Shown: positions 825 through 20,937 of the stretch, one piece after another
How positions within the stretch are numbered: the first letter of the stretch is position 1
Layout of the letters: every line of letters begins with the position of its first letter
DNA from: a virus
Reading direction: 5' to 3' (one strand)
Virus record (IMG/VR): IMGVR_UViG_3300043398_000217
Coordinates: 1 to 34,453 of that record
DNA length: 34,453 nt
Notes under the pieces: generated by a model
The model's database searches: none
What the model was told of the DNA's origin: nothing
The model's input: the letters and a program-made list of their open reading frames with translations, nothing else
Translations under genes and position numbers: made by a program

Positions 825-1348
825 ACCAAAGCAAAGCAACCAGCAATCTGTACGACTGCCTGTGCAGCAAGCTGTACGACTGCCTGTGCAGGTCGTGTGC
901 GCCAAAGGCTGAGGAAATCCTTACCGCCGCCATCGAGCAAGCGCTTGCAGTGCAGCCCAAGCCACAATCTTGCATTGAATTTCTCTACGAGCAACTGCGA
1001 AAAGAAACCGATGGAGGCAGCGAAAGCATGACGCACGATGATGCTATCGAAATAATCCGAGTATGGCGTGATGCTTACTATGCTCAAAAGTATCCGCAGC
1101 CCGAGCAGAGGCCGGTAGCAACGCTGTGGCAGCACAACGAAACCGGGCGCACCCGCATAACCATGCCGGAGGACATCACAGATTGCGACGCTAGGTGGTT
1201 CAAAGCTGCCGACCTTTACACCCAGCCGCAGGCTTGGGTTGGTTTAAGCGACGCAGACCTGGCCGGTTGCTCTACGGACGAATACAAAGCAGCGCGTTAT
1301 TGGGAAGCTGTGCTTCAGGAGAAAAACACAAAAGATCAACCCTCGTAA
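821..1348 (+). CDS. Hypothetical phage protein with C-terminal WVGLSDADL motif
   Basis: A 175-aa protein; the ATG at 821 overlaps the previous stop (ATGA) and follows AGGAGAAG. The N-terminus has two tandem copies of an octapeptide (LYDCLCSK, LYDCLCRS) coded by a 24-bp DNA repeat, giving a Cys-rich start. Next comes AIEQALAVQPKP, shared with the upstream gene. The C-terminal part (ATLWQHNETGRTRI, then YTQPQAWVGLSDADL) is of a kind I associate with modular accessory proteins of beta- and gammaproteobacterial phages, where substrate or partner are unknown. No catalytic motif is seen. Confidence 0.7.
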   Translation: MNQSKATSNLYDCLCSKLYDCLCRSCAPKAEEILTAAIEQALAVQPKPQSCIEFLYEQLRKETDGGSESMTHDDAIEIIRVWRDAYYAQKYPQPEQRPVATLWQHNETGRTRITMPEDITDCDARWFKAADLYTQPQAWVGLSDADLAGCSTDEYKAARYWEAVLQEKNTKDQPS

Positions 1349-1361
1349 CATCGTTTACACT

Positions 1362-1382
1362 TCTACTATCTTTCAACGACAA
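1362..1382 (+). promoter_or_regulatory. Recurring TCG-YTATCTT element, copy a
   Basis: The sequence TCTACTATCTTTCAACGACAA matches copy b (1580-1601) at most positions, including CTATCTT and ACGACAA. It lies about 35 bases before the ATG of the 55-aa gene in a short non-coding gap. It is likely a phage promoter or operator; the type of factor is unknown. Confidence 0.4.
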
Positions 1383-1398
1383 GCGGAACACCAACCAC

Positions 1399-1566
1399 AT
1401 GAAACTTCGTCTTTTTGCCCTGCGCGATACAGCAAGCAACAAAATCATCCCCGACCTTTTCTTCGGGGACAAGCAGGCTGCCAAGCGTGAACGGGATGCA
1501 CGCAATGCTCAAGGCGGTTCATACGCCGTCACCGCGGGGCCTGACCACCACAAGTACAAAGGCTAA
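1399..1566 (+). CDS. Small basic hypothetical protein (55 aa)
   Basis: A 55-aa protein starting MKLRLFALRD and rich in Lys and Arg in the middle (KQAAKRERDARN). It stands alone, with non-coding DNA and a copy of the recurring promoter-like element on each side. The N-terminal strand-like segment followed by FFGDKQAAKRERD suggests a small phage protein that may bind nucleic acid, but no family is recognised. The ATG is chosen because the longer in-frame extension would overlap the preceding gene by more than 150 bases. Confidence 0.65.
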   Translation: MKLRLFALRDTASNKIIPDLFFGDKQAAKRERDARNAQGGSYAVTAGPDHHKYKG

Positions 1567-1579
1567 AACACGGCCTTTA

Positions 1580-1601
1580 ATCGTCTATCTTCTGACGACA
1601 A
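1580..1601 (+). promoter_or_regulatory. Recurring TCGTCTATCTT element, copy b
   Basis: ATCGTCTATCTTCTGACGAC lies in the 65-base gap before the MoxR-like ATPase gene. It carries the full TCGTYTATCTT core shared with copies c-j. Probably a phage promoter or regulator site that starts the AAA+/VWA gene block. Confidence 0.5.
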
Positions 1602-1631
1602 AATTTCCCGGAACGACCGAAAGGAAAGAAA

Positions 1632-2642
1632 ATGAAACCCTCACAAGTAGCACGCTCGCTCACCCATCTCGTCGAGCGCAAACGCCCAGCCTTCATCTGG
1701 GGCCCTCCCGGAGCCGGCAAATCCGACATCGTCCGCACCGTTGCTGAAGAACGCGGCCTTGAGCTGCGTGACGTTCGTCTCAACCTGATGGACCCTGTGG
1801 ACCTCAAAGGTTTCCCCAGCATCGAAGAGACCGGCACCGGGCGCAACAAACGGCGCCAGATGGCATTTGTGCCGCCTGACTTTCTGCCCATGGACCCCAA
1901 ATCCGAGGGCATCTTGTTCCTTGACGAGATGAACAGCGCCGCTCAATCTGTTCAAGCTGCAGCGTACCAACTGATTCTCAACCGAAAGATAGGCGACTAT
2001 GAACTTCCAAAAGGCTGGGCCGTCCTTGCAGCGGGTAACCGAGCTGGTGATCGCGCAGTTGTGCACAGTATGCCTAGCGCTCTGGCTAACCGGTTCGTTC
2101 ACATCGACTTCGAAGTCGACGTTGACGACTGGTACGCCTGGGCCACACAAACAGGCGTGTCCGACATCACCCGAGCCTTCATCAAATTCCGCCCCAACCT
2201 GCTGCACTCCTTCGACCCCGGTGCCAACGAGCGAGCCTTCCCTACACCTCGCTCGTGGGTTTTTGTAGACGACATAACCCGTTCCAAACTGTCTCCTGAT
2301 ACCGAGTATGAACTGATCAAAGGCACCGTGGGCGAAGGCGCAGCCGCGGAATACCTGGCGTTTGCAAAGCTCGCTGCAGAACTCCCATCTGCCGAAGAGA
2401 TTTTGATGAACCCAGACACCGCACCAGTGCCCGAGTCGCCCGCTGCGCAGTATGCCGTGTGCACCATGCTCGACTCGAAAGCCACGGCAAACAGCATGGG
2501 CAGGTTGCTGACCTACGTCGAGCGTTTGCCGATCGAGTTCCAAGTGCTGTTTGTTCGCTCCGCAGCCATGGCAAATCGAACAGTCACTCAGTGCAAAGAC
2601 TATGTACGGTGGGTGACCGCGAACACCAAAGTCTTGCTGTAA
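1632..2642 (+). CDS. MoxR-family AAA+ ATPase
   Basis: A 336-aa AAA+ ATPase. Walker A is GPPGAGKS (24-31), Walker B is ILFLDE (94-99), sensor-1 Asn is near 136 (AAGN), and the arginine-finger region is SALANRF with Arg154. The order and spacing fit the MoxR group, whose members remodel or activate protein complexes and typically work with a VWA-domain partner. Here the likely partner is the DUF2201/VWA protein at 6797-7909, about 4 kb downstream on the same strand. The start ATG follows GGAAAG. It is cytoplasmic, with no membrane segment. The target in the infected cell is unknown. Confidence in the family is high; the biological role is inferred only. Confidence 0.9.
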   Translation: MKPSQVARSLTHLVERKRPAFIWGPPGAGKSDIVRTVAEERGLELRDVRLNLMDPVDLKGFPSIEETGTGRNKRRQMAFVPPDFLPMDPKSEGILFLDEMNSAAQSVQAAAYQLILNRKIGDYELPKGWAVLAAGNRAGDRAVVHSMPSALANRFVHIDFEVDVDDWYAWATQTGVSDITRAFIKFRPNLLHSFDPGANERAFPTPRSWVFVDDITRSKLSPDTEYELIKGTVGEGAAAEYLAFAKLAAELPSAEEILMNPDTAPVPESPAAQYAVCTMLDSKATANSMGRLLTYVERLPIEFQVLFVRSAAMANRTVTQCKDYVRWVTANTKVLL

Positions 2643-2646
2643 GGCT

Positions 2647-2832
2647 ATGACCATTAATGAGGACCTCACTCGCCGGATGTTCTACGCCTGGTGGAGGTGC
2701 ACTCCAGAAGCAAAGCTTCTGCGACCGCTGCCGGAAGAGTTGAGGTTCTTAGAAAAATACCCTAACAACTTCAAGAAAGTCCGCGAGGCGTTTCACCTTG
2801 CCTGGATCACCCACAAGATCACGGAGATGTGA
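2647..2832 (+). CDS. Small hypothetical protein (61 aa)
   Basis: A 61-aa protein 4 bases after the ATPase stop, so clearly in the same transcription unit. It is rich in aromatic and basic residues (MFYAWWRCTPEAKLL at the front, FHLAWITHKITEM at the end) and probably folds as a small helical bundle. No family is recognised. Its place between the ATPase and a NinX-like gene suggests an accessory role. Confidence 0.65.
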   Translation: MTINEDLTRRMFYAWWRCTPEAKLLRPLPEELRFLEKYPNNFKKVREAFHLAWITHKITEM

Positions 2833-2835
2833 CTC

Positions 2836-3174
2836 ATGAAAACAGCAAACCTGACAGGCCCACAACTTGACTGGGCAGTGGCGAAGGCCCTTGGGGAATA
2901 CCGGCCCGTACCCGTGCCGAAATACTCCATCAACTGGAGCCAAGGTGGGCCGCTACTGGAACGCGAACGCCTCAGTCTGACTTACGACGCACACTGGCAC
3001 TATGACCCGACCGACCCAGAAGACAACGGTGAGCGCTGGTACTGTGAATTGACTGAGCCGAACGAGGGCAGCAGCCACGGGAGGTACGGCCCCACCCCAC
3101 TTGTGGCAGCCATGCGGACCCTTGTTGCCTCACGCCTTGGCCCAGAAATCGAAATCCCACAGGAGCTTGTATGA
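2836..3174 (+). CDS. NinX-like (DUF2591) phage protein
   Basis: A 112-aa protein. The N-terminal pattern TANLTGPQLDWAVAKALG, the central WSQGGPLLERE, and the TPLVAAMRTLVASRLG tail match the DUF2591/P22 NinX family as I know it. Members lie in the early ('nin') regions of lambdoid and many other phages; the biochemical role is unknown. A GGAG at 2823-2826 precedes the ATG. The stop overlaps the next start (ATGA at 3171). Family assignment is by motif recall, not a search. Confidence 0.75.
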   Translation: MKTANLTGPQLDWAVAKALGEYRPVPVPKYSINWSQGGPLLERERLSLTYDAHWHYDPTDPEDNGERWYCELTEPNEGSSHGRYGPTPLVAAMRTLVASRLGPEIEIPQELV

Positions 3175-3428
3175 CCGCCTTCACCTACGAAGAAAACAAC
3201 GCCATCCGGGTCATCCGCAAGTCTATGCGGAACAAGCCAGGCATCGTCGCTGAGATCTTGAAAGACGCCCCATACGCCGCCGCTGAAGCAGTCTTACTGG
3301 CAGCGAAAAAAGAGACTGAACAGCTGCTACACGTCACCAAGGCGTTTGTTGCAGCAGCAAGTGTGTTGGCTAGTAAGCAGCAACAGGAACGAAGCGATGA
3401 CGCCACAGAAAGTACGAATCAGCCATAA
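3171..3428 (+). CDS. Small Ala-rich helical hypothetical protein
   Basis: An 85-aa protein starting at an ATGA overlap with the NinX-like gene. It is almost entirely helical in character, with an alanine-rich middle (APYAAAEAVLLAAKK) and a Gln/Asp/Ser-rich, probably disordered C-terminus. The following gene starts inside its last 32 bases. No family is recognised. Confidence 0.6.
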   Translation: MTAFTYEENNAIRVIRKSMRNKPGIVAEILKDAPYAAAEAVLLAAKKETEQLLHVTKAFVAAASVLASKQQQERSDDATESTNQP

Positions 3429-3657
3429 AACGGTGTACCTGGTTCCTCGAATTAAGTCAGGAGAAATAGGCTGCGCACAGTGTTGTTTTATTGCAACACA
3501 TCGCGCTTCGTACCCTGGTCCCGACGACTGCTACAGAACAGGCCGTTCACAAGAATGCCAAAAACGTGCTGACTCCCGTGTTTATGTGACGCCGCAAAAA
3601 CTGCGCCACCACTTATTTGCTCTAGGCAACCACCGCATCTTAGGAGAACCCTCATGA
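3397..3657 (+). CDS. Cys-rich hypothetical phage protein
   Basis: I start this 86-aa protein at ATG 3397, preceded by AGGAA at 3384-3388; an in-frame start at 3346 would overlap the previous gene further. It contains four or five cysteines (CAQCCF, DDCYR, QECQKR) spaced in a way that could bind zinc. Then comes VYVTPQKLRHHLFALGNHRILGEP. It overlaps the next gene by four bases. The cysteine pattern suggests a structural metal site. No function is known. Confidence 0.65.
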   Translation: MTPQKVRISHKTVYLVPRIKSGEIGCAQCCFIATHRASYPGPDDCYRTGRSQECQKRADSRVYVTPQKLRHHLFALGNHRILGEPS

Positions 3658-4481
3658 TCCAAGACAAATCCATGCTCGTTGACCTCACCATCTCAAAGTG
3701 GGGGGCTACAAAACACGACAAAGCTGTTTCTGCGGAAGTCGAACAAACCCATTCTGCCAAAGACGCTGGCCGCTATAACAAACGGCTGATCGACAAGACC
3801 CACCTGGCGGTGATCGACACACTCGCTGGTCAGATCCGCAAATACCACTACAGCCGCACGCTGCCCTGGTCTGACAAAGGCCAGCGCCTGCTGCCCAGCA
3901 AGTTGTTCATGGATTACCGCCAGGACATCAACTTGTTCAAAGCACAGTTCATCAAAGCCACCGACGACTTCCTGTCCATCTACCCACAGCTGGTACAAGA
4001 CGCTCGTTTGCGTCTGGGCACCATGTACCAGCCCGATGATTACCCAGCCGTCAAAGACCTGGAAAACGCGTTCGGTATTGAGCTGCTGATCACGCCCGTG
4101 CCCGATGCCGGCGACTTCCGCGTCGAGGTCGACAACGAAACTCGAGACGAGATCCGTAAGCAAATCACTGAAGCAGTCAATGCTCGCCAGGTCAAAGCCG
4201 TGCGTGATTGTTATACCCGCGCACGCGAAGTCGTTTCTCGCATTGCTGAACAGTGTTCCAAGAAAGACGGCCGTATCCACGACTCGCTGATGGAAAACGC
4301 CCAGGACCTGACCTCTGTGTTGGCCGGACTCAACATCACCGACGACCCCGACATCGCCCAGATGGAGAAAGACATCAAAGCGTTGATTGTTCACCCTGAC
4401 GCGATCCGCACCTCTCCCGCGACACGCAAGCGCATCGCCGACGGTGCAGCAGACATTCTCGCAAAAATGCCATGGAGTTGA
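3654..4481 (+). CDS. Helical phage protein between AAA+ and VWA genes, possibly DUF3150-like
   Basis: A 275-aa mostly helical protein with no transmembrane segment or catalytic motif. It starts MIQDKSMLVDLTISKWGAT and has a central segment (LPSKLFMDYRQDINLFKAQF). Phage MoxR-type ATPases are often accompanied by a DUF3150-like protein, and the size, the N-terminal 'TISKWGATK' part and the 'R.L.PSKLF' middle recall that group. I cannot confirm it without a profile search. If right, it would be the third member of an ATPase/adaptor/VWA set. ATG 3654 overlaps the preceding stop, and TAGGAG lies upstream. Confidence 0.75.
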   Translation: MIQDKSMLVDLTISKWGATKHDKAVSAEVEQTHSAKDAGRYNKRLIDKTHLAVIDTLAGQIRKYHYSRTLPWSDKGQRLLPSKLFMDYRQDINLFKAQFIKATDDFLSIYPQLVQDARLRLGTMYQPDDYPAVKDLENAFGIELLITPVPDAGDFRVEVDNETRDEIRKQITEAVNARQVKAVRDCYTRAREVVSRIAEQCSKKDGRIHDSLMENAQDLTSVLAGLNITDDPDIAQMEKDIKALIVHPDAIRTSPATRKRIADGAADILAKMPWS

Positions 4482-4482
4482 T

Positions 4483-5217
4483 ATGTTCCAGATAAACGTC
4501 CGCAGCATGCCTTGGTTACGGTCTTTCGCACGCTGCAAAGAATGGTACGAGCAAACAAAAAAGCCCGGAGGGAGTAAATGGAAAGAGAACGAAAGACCGC
4601 TGGATTCAGTGCGCATGCACCACAAGCGCATCGTGCTGAACTCAGCAGGTGGGTATGAATTGACGCTGTACCAAACCCCCCTGGTGACTTACTGGCCGGA
4701 CGGGACGGTCACAGTGCACCTTCATGACAGCAGGTCGTCTCGGCTTTTCCTCGACCGCATGCTGCCCAGCGGCTTGGCGATCAACACCAAGAGCAGGATC
4801 TTGCTAGGCGTAGATGCAGTCAATGGCGTTCGATGGGTTCAGGCCGGTCCGAACGGCGTTATGTTGGAGCGTGCCGAGTACGACCGCTGGAGGATCATAA
4901 ATGAGGTCGAACAACGTCGCCGTGAAGTCGTTAATCGTCAAAAGAGTTCAGAAGTCCGCAAGACAATAAAGCCGTTTTTGGCTTGGTACCGCGCAGCATC
5001 CAAGATCATTCCGTTTGAAAAACGGCACTTCGGTTCAGGAACAGCTTTGTCCATATTCGACGTGACAAAAACCGAGGACTGGCCAAAGCTGGCGGAGTTT
5101 GTTCACAACGAAGAAGTATTTCGGGGTCGGGCATACGACTATTTCGGCGCACGAGAGGTCTTGCCAATCCCTGATGACACGCCGCCGCGCCGGGGGCGTA
5201 GCTGGGCGCTCACATGA
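4483..5217 (+). CDS. Hypothetical phage protein (244 aa)
   Basis: The protein starts at ATG 4483, one base after the previous stop (TGA at 4479-4481). A beta-rich N-terminal half (IVLNSAGGYELTLYQT, LVTYWPDGTVTVHL) is followed by a charged helical section (VEQRRREVVNRQKSSEVRK) and a Pro/Arg-rich end. The N-terminal pattern 'Y.LTLY.TPLVTYWPDGTV' is frequent in phage proteins of unknown role. It is coupled to the next gene by ATGA at 5214. No enzyme motif is visible. Confidence 0.7.
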   Translation: MFQINVRSMPWLRSFARCKEWYEQTKKPGGSKWKENERPLDSVRMHHKRIVLNSAGGYELTLYQTPLVTYWPDGTVTVHLHDSRSSRLFLDRMLPSGLAINTKSRILLGVDAVNGVRWVQAGPNGVMLERAEYDRWRIINEVEQRRREVVNRQKSSEVRKTIKPFLAWYRAASKIIPFEKRHFGSGTALSIFDVTKTEDWPKLAEFVHNEEVFRGRAYDYFGAREVLPIPDDTPPRRGRSWALT

Positions 5218-5363
5218 ACTACTCGATCCACTCAAACCAAAACAACTCCCTCCCTGAGTGGGAAGTGTTCAACAACTCAGAATGGTTGGCGTCGTTCAGC
5301 CGCAAAAGCGACGCTGAACTTTTCGTCAAGATCAAACAAATCAACGACATCTTGAGCACATGA
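5214..5363 (+). CDS. Very small hypothetical protein (49 aa)
   Basis: A 49-aa frame (MNYSIHSNQNNSLPEWEVFN at the front) from an ATGA overlap at 5214 to TGA 5361-5363, which itself overlaps the next ATG at 5360. Both junctions are of the coupled type, and the gap between larger genes is exactly filled, so I consider it real. Its composition (Asn/Ser-rich start, then SRKSDAELFVKIKQIND) suggests a small alpha/beta phage peptide. Function is unknown. Confidence 0.6.
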   Translation: MNYSIHSNQNNSLPEWEVFNNSEWLASFSRKSDAELFVKIKQINDILST

Positions 5364-5803
5364 GAAAGCACACCAAACGCAAGGTCTACCGTGCGAACCA
5401 CCCGCTCAAAGACAAGATCATTCTCGATCATCTTGATAAGACCATTCGCGACCTAAAGATTCGGTTCTACCTGGCTTCAGATGGTGACGATGCAACACCT
5501 TACCTGGCCGAACTCGCGCATGTCTTGACACCGATCTGTGTTGGCGGGTCGATTCAGTTCGGCCGCGAAACACCTTGGGTGCGCCAGTTACACGGCGCGC
5601 TCAGGACCTTGCAGGCAATGTGTCTAGACGGCTACCGCTGGAACGCCGCAAACGCTGCACCCCTCAACGCAGCACTGGAAGTAGCGTTGGCAAATATGCG
5701 CGTCGTTGACCTGAAGCCGCTCATGCAAGGGATCGAAGAAGGCGTTGTGTTTGCCAGCTACATCTCTAACCACTTGGTAACCAAAGAAACTGTCTCGTCA
5801 TGA
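5360..5803 (+). CDS. Hypothetical phage protein (147 aa)
   Basis: A 147-aa protein with a very basic N-terminus (MRKHTKRKVYRANHPLKDK) and an otherwise helical body (VRQLHGALRTLQAMC, NAAPLNAALEVALANM). It is coupled on both sides by four-base overlaps, with the 49-aa gene and with thyX. The basic start could contact nucleic acid. I do not recognise a domain. Confidence 0.7.
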   Translation: MRKHTKRKVYRANHPLKDKIILDHLDKTIRDLKIRFYLASDGDDATPYLAELAHVLTPICVGGSIQFGRETPWVRQLHGALRTLQAMCLDGYRWNAANAAPLNAALEVALANMRVVDLKPLMQGIEEGVVFASYISNHLVTKETVSS

Positions 5804-6606
5804 ACATCGAACAAATACAAGCAGAGTACGTCGAACACATGGGCAGCGACCTGAGCGTCGTCAACGCAGCTCGTGCGTCGTTTGGCAAGACGAGCGACTG
5901 GGAGGTCAACAGCCACGTGCCACGTGAACGAGAGCTCAAGCAATCCGATGCCAACCTGATCCGCTTCCTGGCGACCGGCTACCGCAGCGGCGAGTGGGAT
6001 GGTCTCCTGAGCACCATCATCGGCCTGGTCCAGTATGGTCTGGACACGAATAACCTCGACTTGACCAAGTCCGATCTGACCAACCTGCTCAAAGCCTACA
6101 AGCGCAAGGCCCAACACTGGGCACCGTTCGGCCACCCGCATGTGTCCATCCGCATCAGCATCCCAATTTTCCTGGCACGGCAGTTCGTCAAGCACCAAGT
6201 GGGTGGCACGTGGTCAGAAGAGTCCCGCCGCTACATCAGCGACGAGCCGGGGGTGTGGTTCCCTGACGAGTGGCACACGCGGCCCGAGGACATTAAGCAG
6301 GGTAGCGGTGATCTCGTCAGCGGGCAAAACAATGCCCACGGTGTCGCCCAATCCGCCACCAAGGCCGCGCTGACTGGCTACGACTACCTTCTTGAAATGG
6401 GCACCGCCCCCGAGGAAGCCCGCATCGTGCTACCACTCAACATGATGACCACGGTGTACTGGACAGGCTCGCTGCTGTTTTGGAGCCGCGTCCACAACCA
6501 GCGCGTTGACAGCCACGCCCAGCTGGCCGCACAAGAGCTTGGCCGAAAGATCGGAGACATCGTGCGCCCGCTGTTCCCTGTTAGCTGGAAGGAGCTGTGC
6601 GAGTGA
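5800..6606 (+). CDS. thyX: FAD-dependent thymidylate synthase ThyX
   Basis: A 268-aa ThyX. The enzyme methylates dUMP to dTMP with methylene-tetrahydrofolate and FAD, feeding viral DNA synthesis. The signature region is at residues 127-145 (RQFVKHQVGGTWSEESRRY), the phage form in which the canonical RHR triad is KHQ and the SxRY end is SRRY. N-terminal VNAARASFGK and the later LPLNMMTTVYWTGSL and FSRVHNQR-like (WSRVHNQRVDSHAQ) motifs support the call. The length is typical for phage ThyX. The start ATG overlaps the previous stop. Together with the dUTPase at 18882 it indicates active control of the dTTP/dUTP pool. Confidence 0.93.
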   Translation: MNIEQIQAEYVEHMGSDLSVVNAARASFGKTSDWEVNSHVPRERELKQSDANLIRFLATGYRSGEWDGLLSTIIGLVQYGLDTNNLDLTKSDLTNLLKAYKRKAQHWAPFGHPHVSIRISIPIFLARQFVKHQVGGTWSEESRRYISDEPGVWFPDEWHTRPEDIKQGSGDLVSGQNNAHGVAQSATKAALTGYDYLLEMGTAPEEARIVLPLNMMTTVYWTGSLLFWSRVHNQRVDSHAQLAAQELGRKIGDIVRPLFPVSWKELCE

Positions 6607-6800
6607 ACGCGCCAACCAACGCGTTCACCGCAGACCGGCGCGAAGAAGTTCGTGCCTGGCTCAAATCCATCAACTGCTTGATCGATCCCAACAAACCTAA
6701 AAAGAGCCACAAGAAACCAAAAGCTTCGCAGACGCCTTTCGTACCTGAAGGCGTCATCCCGAAACCAACGCGCAAAAAGCCCAAAGGACCCAAGCCATGA
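6603..6800 (+). CDS. Small Lys/Pro-rich basic protein
   Basis: I choose GTG 6603 because it overlaps the thyX stop (GTGA) and lies 8 bases after AAGGAG (6589-6594); GTG 6597 is too close to that site. The resulting 65-aa protein has a short helical head (RREEVRAWLKSINCL) and a long Lys/Pro-rich tail (KKSHKKPK, RKKPKGPKP) that looks disordered and strongly basic. Binding to DNA or RNA is plausible but not shown. It overlaps the next gene by four bases. Confidence 0.55.
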   Translation: MNAPTNAFTADRREEVRAWLKSINCLIDPNKPKKSHKKPKASQTPFVPEGVIPKPTRKKPKGPKP

Positions 6801-7909
6801 CAGAAGTAAACAACAGTTCTGCAGCCAAAGAAAAGCTGACCATTGCCCGTGCGCAGCTGCTGCTCAACAAAGGGCACGGCTTCTTCGGTATGCTGGCTTT
6901 GCGCCTAAAGCTCGTTGAGGACTACAACGTCAAAACTCTGGCCGTCGACGGCAAGCGCTGCTTTTACAACCCGGACTTTGTTGTCAATGAGCTGACAGAC
7001 AACTTGACACGAAGCGCCATGGCCCACGAAGTCATGCACTGCGTGTTCCAGCACATTGGGCGCCGGGGGCACCGCAATCCGCGCAAATGGAACAAAGCCG
7101 GAGACTACGCCATCAATTTGGTGCTACAAGACTCAGGGTTTGAGATCGGCAAAAACTGGTTGATCAGCGATCAATACAAAGGCATGACTGCAGACGAGAT
7201 CTACGACTTGTTGCCTGACGAAGATGACGGCCAGGGCGAAGACCCACTTGATGAAGTCCTCAACGGCGACCCCTCCGACCAAGAGCAAACCGAGGTCGAG
7301 TGGAAACTGGCCACGGTGCAAGCCGTGAACACGGCCAAAACCCAAGGCCAACTACCAGGCGCACTGAAACAGTTTGTCGAAGAGATCACAGCGCCCCCTA
7401 AAGTCAACTGGCGTGATCAGTTGCGCCAGTTCATCACCCAGATCAGCAAGGACGACTATGCTTGGAGTCGGCCGAACCGCCGCTACCTGGCTGCCGGCGT
7501 CTACCTCCCTGGACTCTGGAGTGAGAACATGGGAGAGATCGTGGTCGTCATCGACACTTCGGGCTCCATCGACCAGCACACGCTCAACACATTCGGCAGC
7601 GAGATCAAAGCCCTGGTGTCGGCCGTGCGCCCGACCAAGACACATGTCATTTATTGCGACGCCGACATCAACCGAGTCGACGCTTATGAGCCGCACGACG
7701 AGCTGAAATTTGAGTTGTGCGGCGGCGGCGGCACCGACTTCTGCCCGCCGTTCCAATACGTCCAAGATCAGGGCATCAGGCCAGAATGTCTGGTCTACCT
7801 GACCGACTTGTACGGCCCCTCCCCCGCTGCGCCTGAGTACCCTACGTTGTGGTGCAGCACCACCAGCCAGGTCGCGCCGTTTGGTACGACCATCGAAATC
7901 GAGGTGTGA
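6797..7909 (+). CDS. DUF2201 putative metallopeptidase / VWA-like protein
   Basis: A 370-aa two-domain protein. The N-terminal half fits the DUF2201 putative metallopeptidase domain, with a zincin-like HEVMH (77-81) and a following conserved AGDYAINLVL. The C-terminal half is VWA-like with an intact MIDAS start (DTSGS, 253-257), a later Asp in IYCDAD, and GGGGTDF. Proteins of this build are found beside MoxR ATPases, as here (ATPase at 1632). The expected mode is that the ATPase remodels a target bound by the metal-site VWA domain. Whether the HExxH part is an active protease is unknown. It is coupled to the preceding gene (ATGA at 6797). Confidence 0.88.
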   Translation: MTEVNNSSAAKEKLTIARAQLLLNKGHGFFGMLALRLKLVEDYNVKTLAVDGKRCFYNPDFVVNELTDNLTRSAMAHEVMHCVFQHIGRRGHRNPRKWNKAGDYAINLVLQDSGFEIGKNWLISDQYKGMTADEIYDLLPDEDDGQGEDPLDEVLNGDPSDQEQTEVEWKLATVQAVNTAKTQGQLPGALKQFVEEITAPPKVNWRDQLRQFITQISKDDYAWSRPNRRYLAAGVYLPGLWSENMGEIVVVIDTSGSIDQHTLNTFGSEIKALVSAVRPTKTHVIYCDADINRVDAYEPHDELKFELCGGGGTDFCPPFQYVQDQGIRPECLVYLTDLYGPSPAAPEYPTLWCSTTSQVAPFGTTIEIEV

Positions 7910-7910
7910 C

Positions 7911-8360
7911 ATGGGCTACCGCTCTGACGTCCGAATGGTCATCCATGGCCCGAAGGAACTCATACTGCATGTTTTTGCTGACCTGCGTTTGCGGGGCGAC
8001 GAGGATATGGTGATCGCCTTAGACGAGTGGAAAGTCATGGCCACAAAGGGGGGCGACGCAGTTGCCATCCTTGGTCAAGGCGGAGTGGACTGGAAGTGGT
8101 ACGACAGTTACCCCGACGTGATAGCCCACAAAGAAATATTTGCCACCTTTGAGCAGGTCCATTACGACGGTACCCAGGCAGGGACCGCAACACTCATAGG
8201 CATGTTCACGCGAGTAGGGGAAGACACTGGTGACGTGGAAACACAGCACTTTGGAAACGACCCGTACGACCTGGCCTACCCCACTCAGCACATAGTGTGT
8301 GAGTTTGACAACTACGACAGACCCGATTTGCGCCCTCGCCTGCTTTCAACTGCGGCATAA
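7911..8360 (+). CDS. Hypothetical phage protein (MGYRSDV type)
   Basis: A 149-aa protein starting at ATG 7911, one base after the VWA gene's stop, hence the same operon. The opening MGYRSDVRMVIHGP and the pattern of alternating strands (ATLIGMFTRVGED, QHIVCEFDNYDRP) recur in many phage and prophage proteins of unknown role, as far as I recall. It is acidic overall. It is the last gene of the AAA+/VWA block and is followed by copy c of the recurring regulatory element. Confidence 0.7.
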   Translation: MGYRSDVRMVIHGPKELILHVFADLRLRGDEDMVIALDEWKVMATKGGDAVAILGQGGVDWKWYDSYPDVIAHKEIFATFEQVHYDGTQAGTATLIGMFTRVGEDTGDVETQHFGNDPYDLAYPTQHIVCEFDNYDRPDLRPRLLSTAA

Positions 8361-8378
8361 TCGTCTATCCTCGATAGA
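8361..8378 (+). promoter_or_regulatory. Recurring element, copy c, with perfect dyad
   Basis: TCGTCTATCCTCGATAGA contains the perfect inverted repeat TCTATC-CTC-GATAGA (8364-8378). It lies between the stop of the previous gene and the ATG at 8391. The dyad suggests a dimeric regulator; the wider core is shared with nine other sites. Confidence 0.55.
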
Positions 8379-8390
8379 ACGGAAAACGAA

Positions 8391-9122
8391 ATGGCAATCA
8401 ACAGCTGGTCATTCAGCAAGCTCCAGGACTTTGAAAAATGCAAGTTCTTGTGCTGGCTGAAACACGACCAAAAAATCCCTGAGCCTGAACGGCCGCTGCC
8501 TCCTGGCAAGACCGAGCACGCCAACGACCGCGGCACCCGCATTCATGAGAGCTGTGAGTTGTACATCAACGGCAAAAACTCCATGCTGGACCCAGAAGCC
8601 GACAAGCATTTCGGCCCCCAGATCGATCTGCTGCGTACGCTGCATGAAGACGGCCTGGTCAGCCTAGAAGGCGAATGGGGCATGAACCGCGATTGGGAAG
8701 TGGCCGACTGGAAAACAGCCTGGCTGCGCCTCAAACTCGACGCCATTGTGTTTCACAGCGATACCGAAGCCACGGTGATTGACTTCAAGACCGGCCGCAA
8801 GTTCGGTAACGAAATCAAGCACGGCGAGCAGCTTGCTCTGTACCAGCTCGTGTCGTTCTTGCGCTACCCCCAGCTGGAACGCGTCACCGCTGAGCTCTGG
8901 TATCTTGACCAGAAGCCTGGCGAGAACCTGACCAGCGTGACCTACACCCGCGACAAGGGCCTGAAGTACCGCAGCAACTTCGACCGTCGCGGCCACAAGC
9001 TGACCACCTGCAATGACTGGCCTGCCAACCCCAACGTCCACAGCTGCGCGTTTTGCCAGTACGGCCCTTGGAACGGCGGTCAGTGCCAAGTCGGCGTGAA
9101 GAAACAAAAAAGCACCAGGTAA
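8391..9122 (+). CDS. PD-(D/E)XK nuclease, RecB/Cas4-like, with cysteine cluster
   Basis: A 243-aa nuclease of the PDDEXK_1 (RecB/Cas4/AddB) type. Visible motifs are RIHE (His52), LDAIVF (Asp117), DFK (131-133) and QLALYQL (Gln147 and Tyr151). Cysteines C17 and C21 near the start and C219, C222 and C232 near the end resemble the split Fe-S cluster of AddB/Cas4 enzymes, though the last spacing (x9) is longer than usual. It would process DNA ends in phage recombination or degrade host DNA. The neighbouring SNF2-type helicase may cooperate. There is no cas1/cas2 or CRISPR nearby, so a CRISPR role is unlikely. Confidence 0.87.
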   Translation: MAINSWSFSKLQDFEKCKFLCWLKHDQKIPEPERPLPPGKTEHANDRGTRIHESCELYINGKNSMLDPEADKHFGPQIDLLRTLHEDGLVSLEGEWGMNRDWEVADWKTAWLRLKLDAIVFHSDTEATVIDFKTGRKFGNEIKHGEQLALYQLVSFLRYPQLERVTAELWYLDQKPGENLTSVTYTRDKGLKYRSNFDRRGHKLTTCNDWPANPNVHSCAFCQYGPWNGGQCQVGVKKQKSTR

Positions 9123-13692: not shown

Positions 13693-13710
13693 TCGTTTAT
13701 CTTTGATAGA
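13693..13710 (+). promoter_or_regulatory. Recurring element, copy f
   Basis: TCGTTTATCTTTGATAGA is the best full-length match to the consensus and contains the dyad TTTATC-TTT-GATAGA. A TTGACA directly precedes it (13687-13692) and a TACAAT follows at 13713-13718, a possible host-type promoter with a 19-20-base spacer enclosing the element. It lies in the leader of the 135-aa gene. Confidence 0.55.
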
Positions 13711-13786
13711 CTACAATCAAGATTCAAAGTTACAAGTTACGGATTACCCCGCGACGAACCAGCCGCAAGGCTTAGGAGCACCCACC

Positions 13787-14194
13787 ATGGCCACAGCCAC
13801 AAAGACCCGCGCACCTGCGGGCAAAACGCCACCCCTTGGCGCCCTCATCGACCAGATGTGGGCTTTGCGCGACAAAAAGCGCGCACTCGAAGCCAGCATC
13901 AAAGACCTCGAAGGTCAGATCGGCGATATCGAGTCATCTCTCATGGAACAGATGAACGAGCAAGGCGTCGACAAGATGTCTGGCGCACTGGCAACTGTCT
14001 CCATTACCACCAACACCGTGGCCCAGGTTGAAGACTGGGACGCCTTCTGGGCCTTTATCCACAAGAAGAAGTACGGCCACTTGTTGCAGCGTCGCGTGTC
14101 CGATCCGGCCTATCGCGAGTTGTTGGGACAAGGCGTCACCGTGCCTGGTGTATCTCCGTTCAGCAAAGCACGCCTCAACCTGCGCGCTCGTTGA
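13787..14194 (+). CDS. Hypothetical replication-region protein with coiled coil
   Basis: I start at ATG 13787, nine bases after TAGGAG (13773-13778), rather than at the upstream in-frame ATG 13703, which would put the regulatory element close to its start codon. The 135-aa product has an N-terminal helical pair (ALRDKKRALEASIKDLEGQI) and a C-terminal part with DAFWAFIHKKKYGHLLQRRV and GVSPFSKARLNLR. Proteins of this form occur beside DNA polymerase and DNA-binding genes in phages, in my recollection, without a defined role. Confidence 0.75.
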   Translation: MATATKTRAPAGKTPPLGALIDQMWALRDKKRALEASIKDLEGQIGDIESSLMEQMNEQGVDKMSGALATVSITTNTVAQVEDWDAFWAFIHKKKYGHLLQRRVSDPAYRELLGQGVTVPGVSPFSKARLNLRAR

Positions 14195-19780: not shown

Positions 19781-20161
19781 ATGCACCCTGCGCGCACGTT
19801 GGGCCTCGTCGAGGCTGCATCCTTGCTGCGTGTCCATAAGGACACGTTGCGGGAGCGTGCGCGTGTGGGGTTAATACCCGGAGCAAAGATCGGTAGGTCG
19901 TGGGTCTTTCTGGAGGCCGACTTGGTCGCCTTCATGCAGGCCCAGTACCACAACCAGGAGCATTCATGTCTATCTACCAACGGAAAAACACCCACATCTG
20001 GTGGGTCAACATCTCGCACCCAAACCACCCTCGCGTTAGACGTTCGACTGGAACGACTGATCGCGCAGAAGCGCAGCGCATCCACGACGAGATCAAAGCC
20101 GAACTCTGGAAGCTCGCGCCAACTGCTTCACTCCCTGGCAACACGTGGGGCAAAGCCGTAA
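19781..20161 (+). CDS. Excisionase-like helix-turn-helix protein
   Basis: A 126-aa frame. Residues 7-53 form a MerR/HTH_17-type DNA-binding unit (LVEAASLLRVHKDTLRERAR, GAKIGRSWVFLEADL), as in recombination directionality factors. Lying directly before the integrase, it is the best candidate for Xis. Its remaining ~73 residues are Ser/Thr/Arg-rich and overlap the integrase coding region by 196 bases. This tail may be readthrough of an open alternative frame or a genuine extension. No strong ribosome site precedes ATG 19781. Confidence 0.7.
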   Translation: MHPARTLGLVEAASLLRVHKDTLRERARVGLIPGAKIGRSWVFLEADLVAFMQAQYHNQEHSCLSTNGKTPTSGGSTSRTQTTLALDVRLERLIAQKRSASTTRSKPNSGSSRQLLHSLATRGAKP

Positions 20162-20937
20162 ACGCCTGGCTCGATATCGAAGAGCGCAGCGAATCCGAAC
20201 TGCTGAGTCTGCGCAAATTCAATTCTTTGTACGCAGACCGCCCACTGACACGCATCAAGGGTGACGACATCGCCAAAGCGCTCAGCTTTTGCCGCACAGC
20301 AGGCACGCACACGCGCTACCGCACCATGATCGTGGCCATCTTGAACGTAGCCAAAAAGCGCAGATGGTTGGCTGAAGTCCCTGACATACCGGTGCGCCGC
20401 GACAAGAAAAAGAAGACCCGCGAATGGATCACACACGAACAATGGGAACGGCTTCATGACGAGTTACCCGCACACCTTGTGGCACCAGCAGCGTTTGCAG
20501 TCAATACAGGACTGCGTCAGTCAAACGTGTTCAAACTCCGTTGGACCGATGTTGACCTGGACCGAAAACTTGCCGTCGTACATGCTGCCGAGACCAAGGA
20601 CGACGATCACTTGGCAGTCCCGCTCAACGACGAGGCCCTCAAGGCCATCGAGTCCCAGAAAGGGGTACACCCTGAGTTCGTCTTTACGTTCAGGCGCAAA
20701 CCGATGGCGAAACCGAAGTACGCCTTCACCGACGCGTGCCGGAGAGCTGGTGTACCTGAATTCACCTGGCACGGCTTTCGTCACACCTGGGCCACTTGGC
20801 ACGTCCAGAACGGCACGCCTCTTGAGGTACTGCAGAAACTGGGTGGCTGGGCTGACCTTCGTATGGTACTCAACTACGCGCACCACTCGCCGGGGTTTGC
20901 AGCGCAATTTGCCAACAACGTGAGGAAGAAAACATGA
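19966..20937 (+). CDS. int: Tyrosine-family phage integrase
   Basis: A 323-aa site-specific recombinase. I use ATG 19966, five bases after AGGAG (19956-19960). An N-terminal arm-binding beta part (TRSTG-like STGTTDRAEA) precedes a SAM-like core-binding helix region, and the catalytic domain shows Arg184 (TGLRQSN), Lys211 (ETKDDD), the HGFR box (269-272), Trp295 (GGW) and the nucleophile Tyr304. It should recombine the attP at ~22480-22530 with a host tRNA-Val gene. All catalytic residues are present, so it is expected to be active. Confidence 0.93.
   Translation: MSIYQRKNTHIWWVNISHPNHPRVRRSTGTTDRAEAQRIHDEIKAELWKLAPTASLPGNTWGKAVNAWLDIEERSESELLSLRKFNSLYADRPLTRIKGDDIAKALSFCRTAGTHTRYRTMIVAILNVAKKRRWLAEVPDIPVRRDKKKKTREWITHEQWERLHDELPAHLVAPAAFAVNTGLRQSNVFKLRWTDVDLDRKLAVVHAAETKDDDHLAVPLNDEALKAIESQKGVHPEFVFTFRRKPMAKPKYAFTDACRRAGVPEFTWHGFRHTWATWHVQNGTPLEVLQKLGGWADLRMVLNYAHHSPGFAAQFANNVRKKT

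Follow-up and report, generated by a model that had tools for sequence, protein, structure and literature searches.

Positions 1,632 to 7,909 of the IMG/VR virus record IMGVR_UViG_3300043398_000217, analysed as a single strand over its full 34,453 bp (hereafter the window), carry genes for a MoxR/midasin-type AAA+ ATPase, a DUF3150-like protein and a protein in which a zincin domain is fused to a VWA-like domain. We consider it probable, at roughly 60%, that these three proteins constitute one ATP-driven machine of mobile DNA that remodels or processes proteins and acts in the cell. The evidence comes from the conservation of active-site residues, from the linkage and order of the genes in viral loci, and from the occurrence of the same trio on plasmids of Burkholderiales. 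A phage pair of MoxR ATPase and vWA-metallopeptidase is already described for jumbo phages in a 2021 study (PMC7824862), while the DUF3150 partner and the plasmid trio appear to be unreported as far as the literature searched shows.

The three proteins

The original prediction of a MoxR AAA+ ATPase with intact Walker A and Walker B motifs was borne out by family matches and by motif conservation (Table 1). Pfam AAA and AAA_5 pass their cut-offs, whereas AAA_3, at 20.9 bits, stays below its cut-off of 27. The Walker motifs are kept, together with the sensor asparagine N136, R154 and R207, in 23 aligned and 106 non-redundant ATPase relatives, and phage N4 gp24 is a homologue with 35.9% identity over 93%. 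The solved structures matched by the ATPase profile include midasin, NorQ and CbbQ, all of which work with partners carrying a metal-ion-dependent adhesion site (MIDAS) in a VWA domain.

The second prediction, a fused HEVMH metallopeptidase-like and VWA protein with an intact MIDAS, also held. Both DUF2201_N, the putative metallopeptidase domain (E=3.6e-46, 158.4 bits), and DUF2201, the VWA-like domain (E=1.4e-25, 90.2 bits), lie above the Pfam cut-off, and D103 is the best candidate for the third zinc ligand. The catalytic and MIDAS residues are almost invariant over 107 non-redundant relatives; with the conserved ATPase residues above, this shows the active sites of both proteins to be under selection in most members. 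The AlphaFold2 model of the VWA protein has a predicted local distance difference test (pLDDT) score of 88.6, and VIA-align supports its VWA fold (Z up to 12.7, root-mean-square deviation 3.0, 152 aligned) in a search that mainly tested the VWA half of the model and barely the zincin half. The identity of HNH endonuclease, which PHROGs (phrog_1314) and many RefSeq phage records assign to this family (e.g. N4 gp25, at 7197-8339 of locus L024), was rejected, as Pfam searches up to E=1 returned DUF2201_N, DUF2201 and a weak VWA match but no HNH domain or anything else, and the motif is HExxH rather than HNH.

For the 275-aa protein, the original guess of a DUF3150-like identity is supported by comparison of profiles. 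Pfam alone places it below the cut-off (E=6.8e-4, 19.5 bits versus 24.9), but when 49 phage members were set against canonical DUF3150 proteins in hhalign, the probability was 97.2 (E=3.8e-11, 143 aligned columns), with an unrelated Nmad5-like family as control at 0.15. Judged by these profiles, the protein is a divergent relative of DUF3150 and not a member of the Pfam family. Its AlphaFold2 model (pLDDT 91.1) predicts an alpha/beta N-terminus followed by long helices; Foldseek returned zero matches under E=0.001 for this model, and VIA-align reached a Z of at most 9.0, on helical bundles, with no solved fold standing out. DUF3150 was not mentioned in the literature searched. A protein of about 225 aa resembling Nmad5 fills the DUF3150 slot in L049, L071, L117, L139 and other loci, where the VWA gene is often followed by another copy; considered as a DUF3150 homologue, it was rejected (profile probability 1.4 and 0.15).

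Table 1. Positions of genes, motifs and residues in the window, with the evidence for each.
Feature	Position	Strand	Evidence
MoxR/midasin-type AAA+ ATPase, 336 aa, phage N4 gp24 relative	1632..2642	+	phrog_1297 (ATPase) E=1.8e-103; Pfam AAA, AAA_5 above cut-off
Walker A GPPGAGKS, residues 24-31	1701..1724	+	K30 in 105/106 non-redundant relatives, remaining one gapped
Walker B LFLDE, residues 95-99	1914..1928	+	D98 105/106; E99 96/106, D in others
R154, candidate arginine finger	2091..2093	+	conserved 106/106; role inferred from AAA+ family knowledge
NinX-like	2836-3174		E=7.8e-12
DUF3150-like protein, 275 aa, recurrent third component, proposed adaptor	3654..4481	+	profile-profile homology; slot conserved
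ThyX	5800-6606		Pfam Thy1 E=2.1e-31
Zincin (DUF2201_N) fused to VWA-like domain (DUF2201), 370 aa, phage N4 gp25 relative	6797..7909	+	Pfam; phrog_1314 E=2e-104
HEVMH zinc-binding/catalytic motif (predicted), residues 77-81	7025..7039	+	H77 106/107, E78 105/107, H81 107/107 non-redundant relatives
D103 in NxAxDxxxN helix, candidate third zinc ligand	7103..7105	+	conserved 107/107; ligand role inferred
MIDAS DTSGS, residues 253-257 (D253-x-S255-x-S257)	7553..7567	+	D253, S255, S257 107/107 non-redundant relatives
MIDAS T313	7733-7735	+	106/107, remaining one gapped
MIDAS D337	7805-7807	+	106/107, remaining one gapped
Integrase	19900-20937		phrog_1 E=9.8e-54

Linkage in viral loci and on plasmids

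Linkage was counted in IMG/VR loci that were the best-scoring ones of each search, a partly redundant and non-random sample, with correction for overlapping open frames. Of the VWA-anchored loci with no less than 5 kb of sequence upstream, 56/56 had the ATPase gene on that side and on the same strand, and the VWA gene lay downstream in 41 of the 42 ATPase-anchored loci with 5 kb downstream. Two apparent exceptions (L113 and L055) were dismissed as artefacts of overlapping open frames; the remaining one, L168, had no DUF2201_N in the searched 61.6-kb record. The loss of one gene without the other in relatives, named in the original prediction as evidence against a functional pair, is thus not the pattern found, as both are kept in a fixed order. 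This order, ATPase and then VWA, is constant in the 107 non-redundant loci that hold both genes, and replication genes downstream are less constant in the same VWA-anchored sample (PolA 33/62, SNF2 36/62, Cas4 32/62). Matches among INPHARED phages number 812 records for the ATPase and 737 for the VWA protein, with near-equal counts by host genus. In all, these patterns support the view that the ATPase and VWA genes form one module. The DUF3150-like gene was found in 38 of the 107 loci, where it stands between the other two in 28, before the ATPase in nine and after the VWA gene in one. In phage N4, gp24 and gp25 follow the same order and the HExxH and MIDAS residues are conserved in gp25, but the two genes are adjacent and no DUF3150 gene was detected. 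A contig of Akkermansiaceae (L197, 11544-15128) carries a second, divergent ATPase/VWA pair beside the first.

The ATPase and VWA genes of the window are separated by eight open reading frames, the DUF3150-like one included, rather than by the six unknown genes first counted, and two of the others encode ThyX and a NinX-like protein (Table 1). These intervening genes vary freely across relatives, in which ThyX, NinX-like, 244-aa and small proteins come and go, and the three module genes are adjacent or nearly so on plasmids and in L010/L011. The suggestion that the intervening genes supply the substrates therefore does not fit, and on this comparative evidence those other than DUF3150 are not parts of the module. 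The 244-aa protein (4483-5217 in the window) has no assigned family and stands close behind DUF3150 in several Burkholderiales relatives (L002, L003, L190, L191).

Outside viral records, 44 plasmids, nearly all from Burkholderiales, carry a DUF3150-like gene. For Burkholderia, Paraburkholderia, Cupriavidus, Caballeronia and Variovorax, its counts equal those of the ATPase and VWA matches. On all 30 plasmids listed the ATPase gene lies upstream of DUF3150 on the same strand, with a gap of 149-203 bp in 29 of them, and the VWA gene follows DUF3150 after 49-131 bp in 23/23. In the annotated plasmids pBVIE02, pIII and pENH92 the trio has a PRTRC cassette and/or genes for type IV secretion in its vicinity. 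The ATPase/VWA pair is also present in several bacterial contigs.

Canonical DUF3150 genes in Burkholderiales genomes adjoin CobT-like VWA genes and, in several loci, lie near CobS-like ATPases, so that this combination of three protein types recurs in two divergent lineages. The ATPase and VWA proteins of this sister set are only remotely related to those of the window, and at least one locus (L226) has its genes in another order.

Proposed machine and alternative roles

We infer a complex in which the AAA+ ATPase would assemble into a ring and the VWA protein would dock on it through the metal site of its MIDAS, in the manner of RavA-ViaA, CbbQ-CbbO and midasin. The DUF3150 protein, as a helical adaptor, may select the substrate or bridge to it; driven by ATP hydrolysis, the machine would pull on this substrate, which the zincin part of the VWA protein could cut. 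The binding of the VWA protein p892 to the MoxR ATPase p618 in the archaeal virus ATV (PMC4124505), described below, counts in favour of this reading. Such a machine would work inside the cell, in the early or middle phase, on a complex faced by phages and plasmids alike, with DNA metabolism or a host barrier as the most plausible target and not virion assembly alone. The comparison with RavA-ViaA, CbbQ-CbbO, NorQ-NorD and midasin holds for an AAA+ ATPase of the broad group paired with a MIDAS/VWA domain; to our knowledge, those systems have neither a zincin domain nor a DUF3150 partner, and their substrates are cellular. A more specific hypothesis, which we regard as speculative and rather doubtful, is that the machine is widespread among mobile elements and strips or cleaves host protein complexes acting on incoming phage and plasmid DNA, with N4 gp24/gp25 as its coliphage representatives.

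Several observations weigh against a single three-part processing machine. No DUF3150 gene was detectable in 69 of the 107 loci, so this component is not obligatory, and in 16 loci a protein weakly like Nmad5 and unrelated to DUF3150 stands between the ATPase and VWA genes. The mirror-tree distance correlation between ATPase and VWA (r=0.92) resembles those with PolA, SNF2 and Cas4 and is therefore not informative. On the P. dioscoreae plasmid pIII (L205, 20911-22188), the VWA protein lacks H77, E78, H81 and D103 but keeps the MIDAS, and its gene still stands in a three-gene operon. Judged by its residues, it is a natural peptidase-dead version, from which it follows that binding may matter without cutting and that proteolysis is not always needed. 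Finally, the PA5oct ATPase record bears an electrospray tandem mass spectrometry (ESI-MS/MS) note like those of structural proteins there, an observation that favours virion assembly instead.

In this alternative, the ATPase and VWA protein would be a chaperone that helps to fold, assemble and proteolytically process structural proteins, a role already suggested for jumbo phages and, in ATV (Acidianus two-tailed virus), for the tail. For group 2.2 jumbo phages, virion assembly was proposed for the same architecture, a MoxR AAA+ ATPase with a vWA protein bearing an N-terminal metallopeptidase domain (PMC7824862); that study names no third component in the relevant passages, whereas DUF3150 recurs as a partner here and plasmids carry the trio too. 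ATV likewise encodes a MoxR ATPase, p618, with an interacting VWA protein, p892, which binds p618 and raises its ATPase activity, and p618 forms part of the virion and binds proteins of the tail (PMC4124505). This pair, compared here by description, differs in being assigned to extracellular tail development and, according to PMC7824862, in having no peptidase domain. The roseophage RPP1 has a second structural module near its gp24/gp25 homologues, but N4 gp24/gp25 transcripts are middle, not late (PMC4193335). In the window, too, the genes belong to the early block with the replication genes, well away from the late ones. The intact trio on conjugative and mobilizable Burkholderiales plasmids, with nothing resembling a virion module in the annotated stretches around it, as well as the pair in bacterial contigs, makes a virion-only function unlikely for the family. 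The original prediction had left the choice between remodelling of a host complex, immunity control and virion assembly; that choice is narrowed by the plasmid trio, which weakens the last of these as a sole role.

An anti-defence machine, dismantling or cleaving an immune or restriction complex with which the host attacks phage and plasmid DNA on entry, would suit a module common to phages and conjugative plasmids and its early position, and a survey of bacterial conflict systems reportedly features MoxR and VWA proteins. We nevertheless hold this role improbable. In PADLOC, neither the VWA nor the DUF3150 protein matched a family and the ATPase drew only short P-loop-type matches, although this is a weak point since PADLOC holds defence and not anti-defence systems. 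The conservation of gp24/gp25 in the core of all 25 N4-like phages suggests housekeeping over a host-specific role (PMC4193335).

A metal-chelatase or cofactor-insertion helper like CobS-CobT or NorQ-NorD, activating a phage metalloenzyme such as one of nucleotide metabolism, is very improbable: the CobS-like and CobT-like sister trio, the NorQ and CbbQ structures matched, and the thymidylate synthase gene nearby in the window, in N4-like roseophages and in S-TIM5 point that way, but the sister-trio CobS and CobT scores are far under the NCBIfam equivalog cut-offs, a ThyX relative is near the VWA gene in only about eight of the sampled loci, and ThyX, being a flavoenzyme, does not depend on metal insertion.

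Genomic surroundings and significance

The early block of the window, on the + strand, encodes the ATPase, ThyX, the VWA protein, a Cas4-like exonuclease, an SNF2-type helicase, a PolA-type polymerase, an exonuclease, a ligase and an integrase; it is faced by a late block on the - strand that includes a 2333-aa virion protein. The integrase, together with syntenic loci in contigs of Variovorax, Herminiimonas, Janthinobacterium and Polaromonas, agrees with the earlier description of the phage as temperate. A promoter and terminator scan of 1200-8500 gave counts not above those of shuffles, and zero on the + strand. Inside the replication block, a 163-aa protein (13703-14194) matches a family of minor head proteins (9.4e-25) and shows a weak match to Mu Gam-like end protection. 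The PolA gene is interrupted by an insertion of about 0.9 kb in L002 (13493-16468) and is in three pieces in L004 (16303-20169), possibly owing to introns or inteins.

N4 gp24/gp25 belong to a core of 14 genes in the 25 N4-like phages compared, with no function assigned (PMC4193335), and the CRISPRi-ART paper did not mention N4 under the terms searched. The present analysis thus concerns two N4-like core genes without known function, of which the VWA gene is mislabelled as an HNH endonuclease in many public phage records. That the module is common to phages and plasmids narrows its possible roles and gives DUF3150 a first context, and the question can be tested in the laboratory system of E. 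coli and N4.

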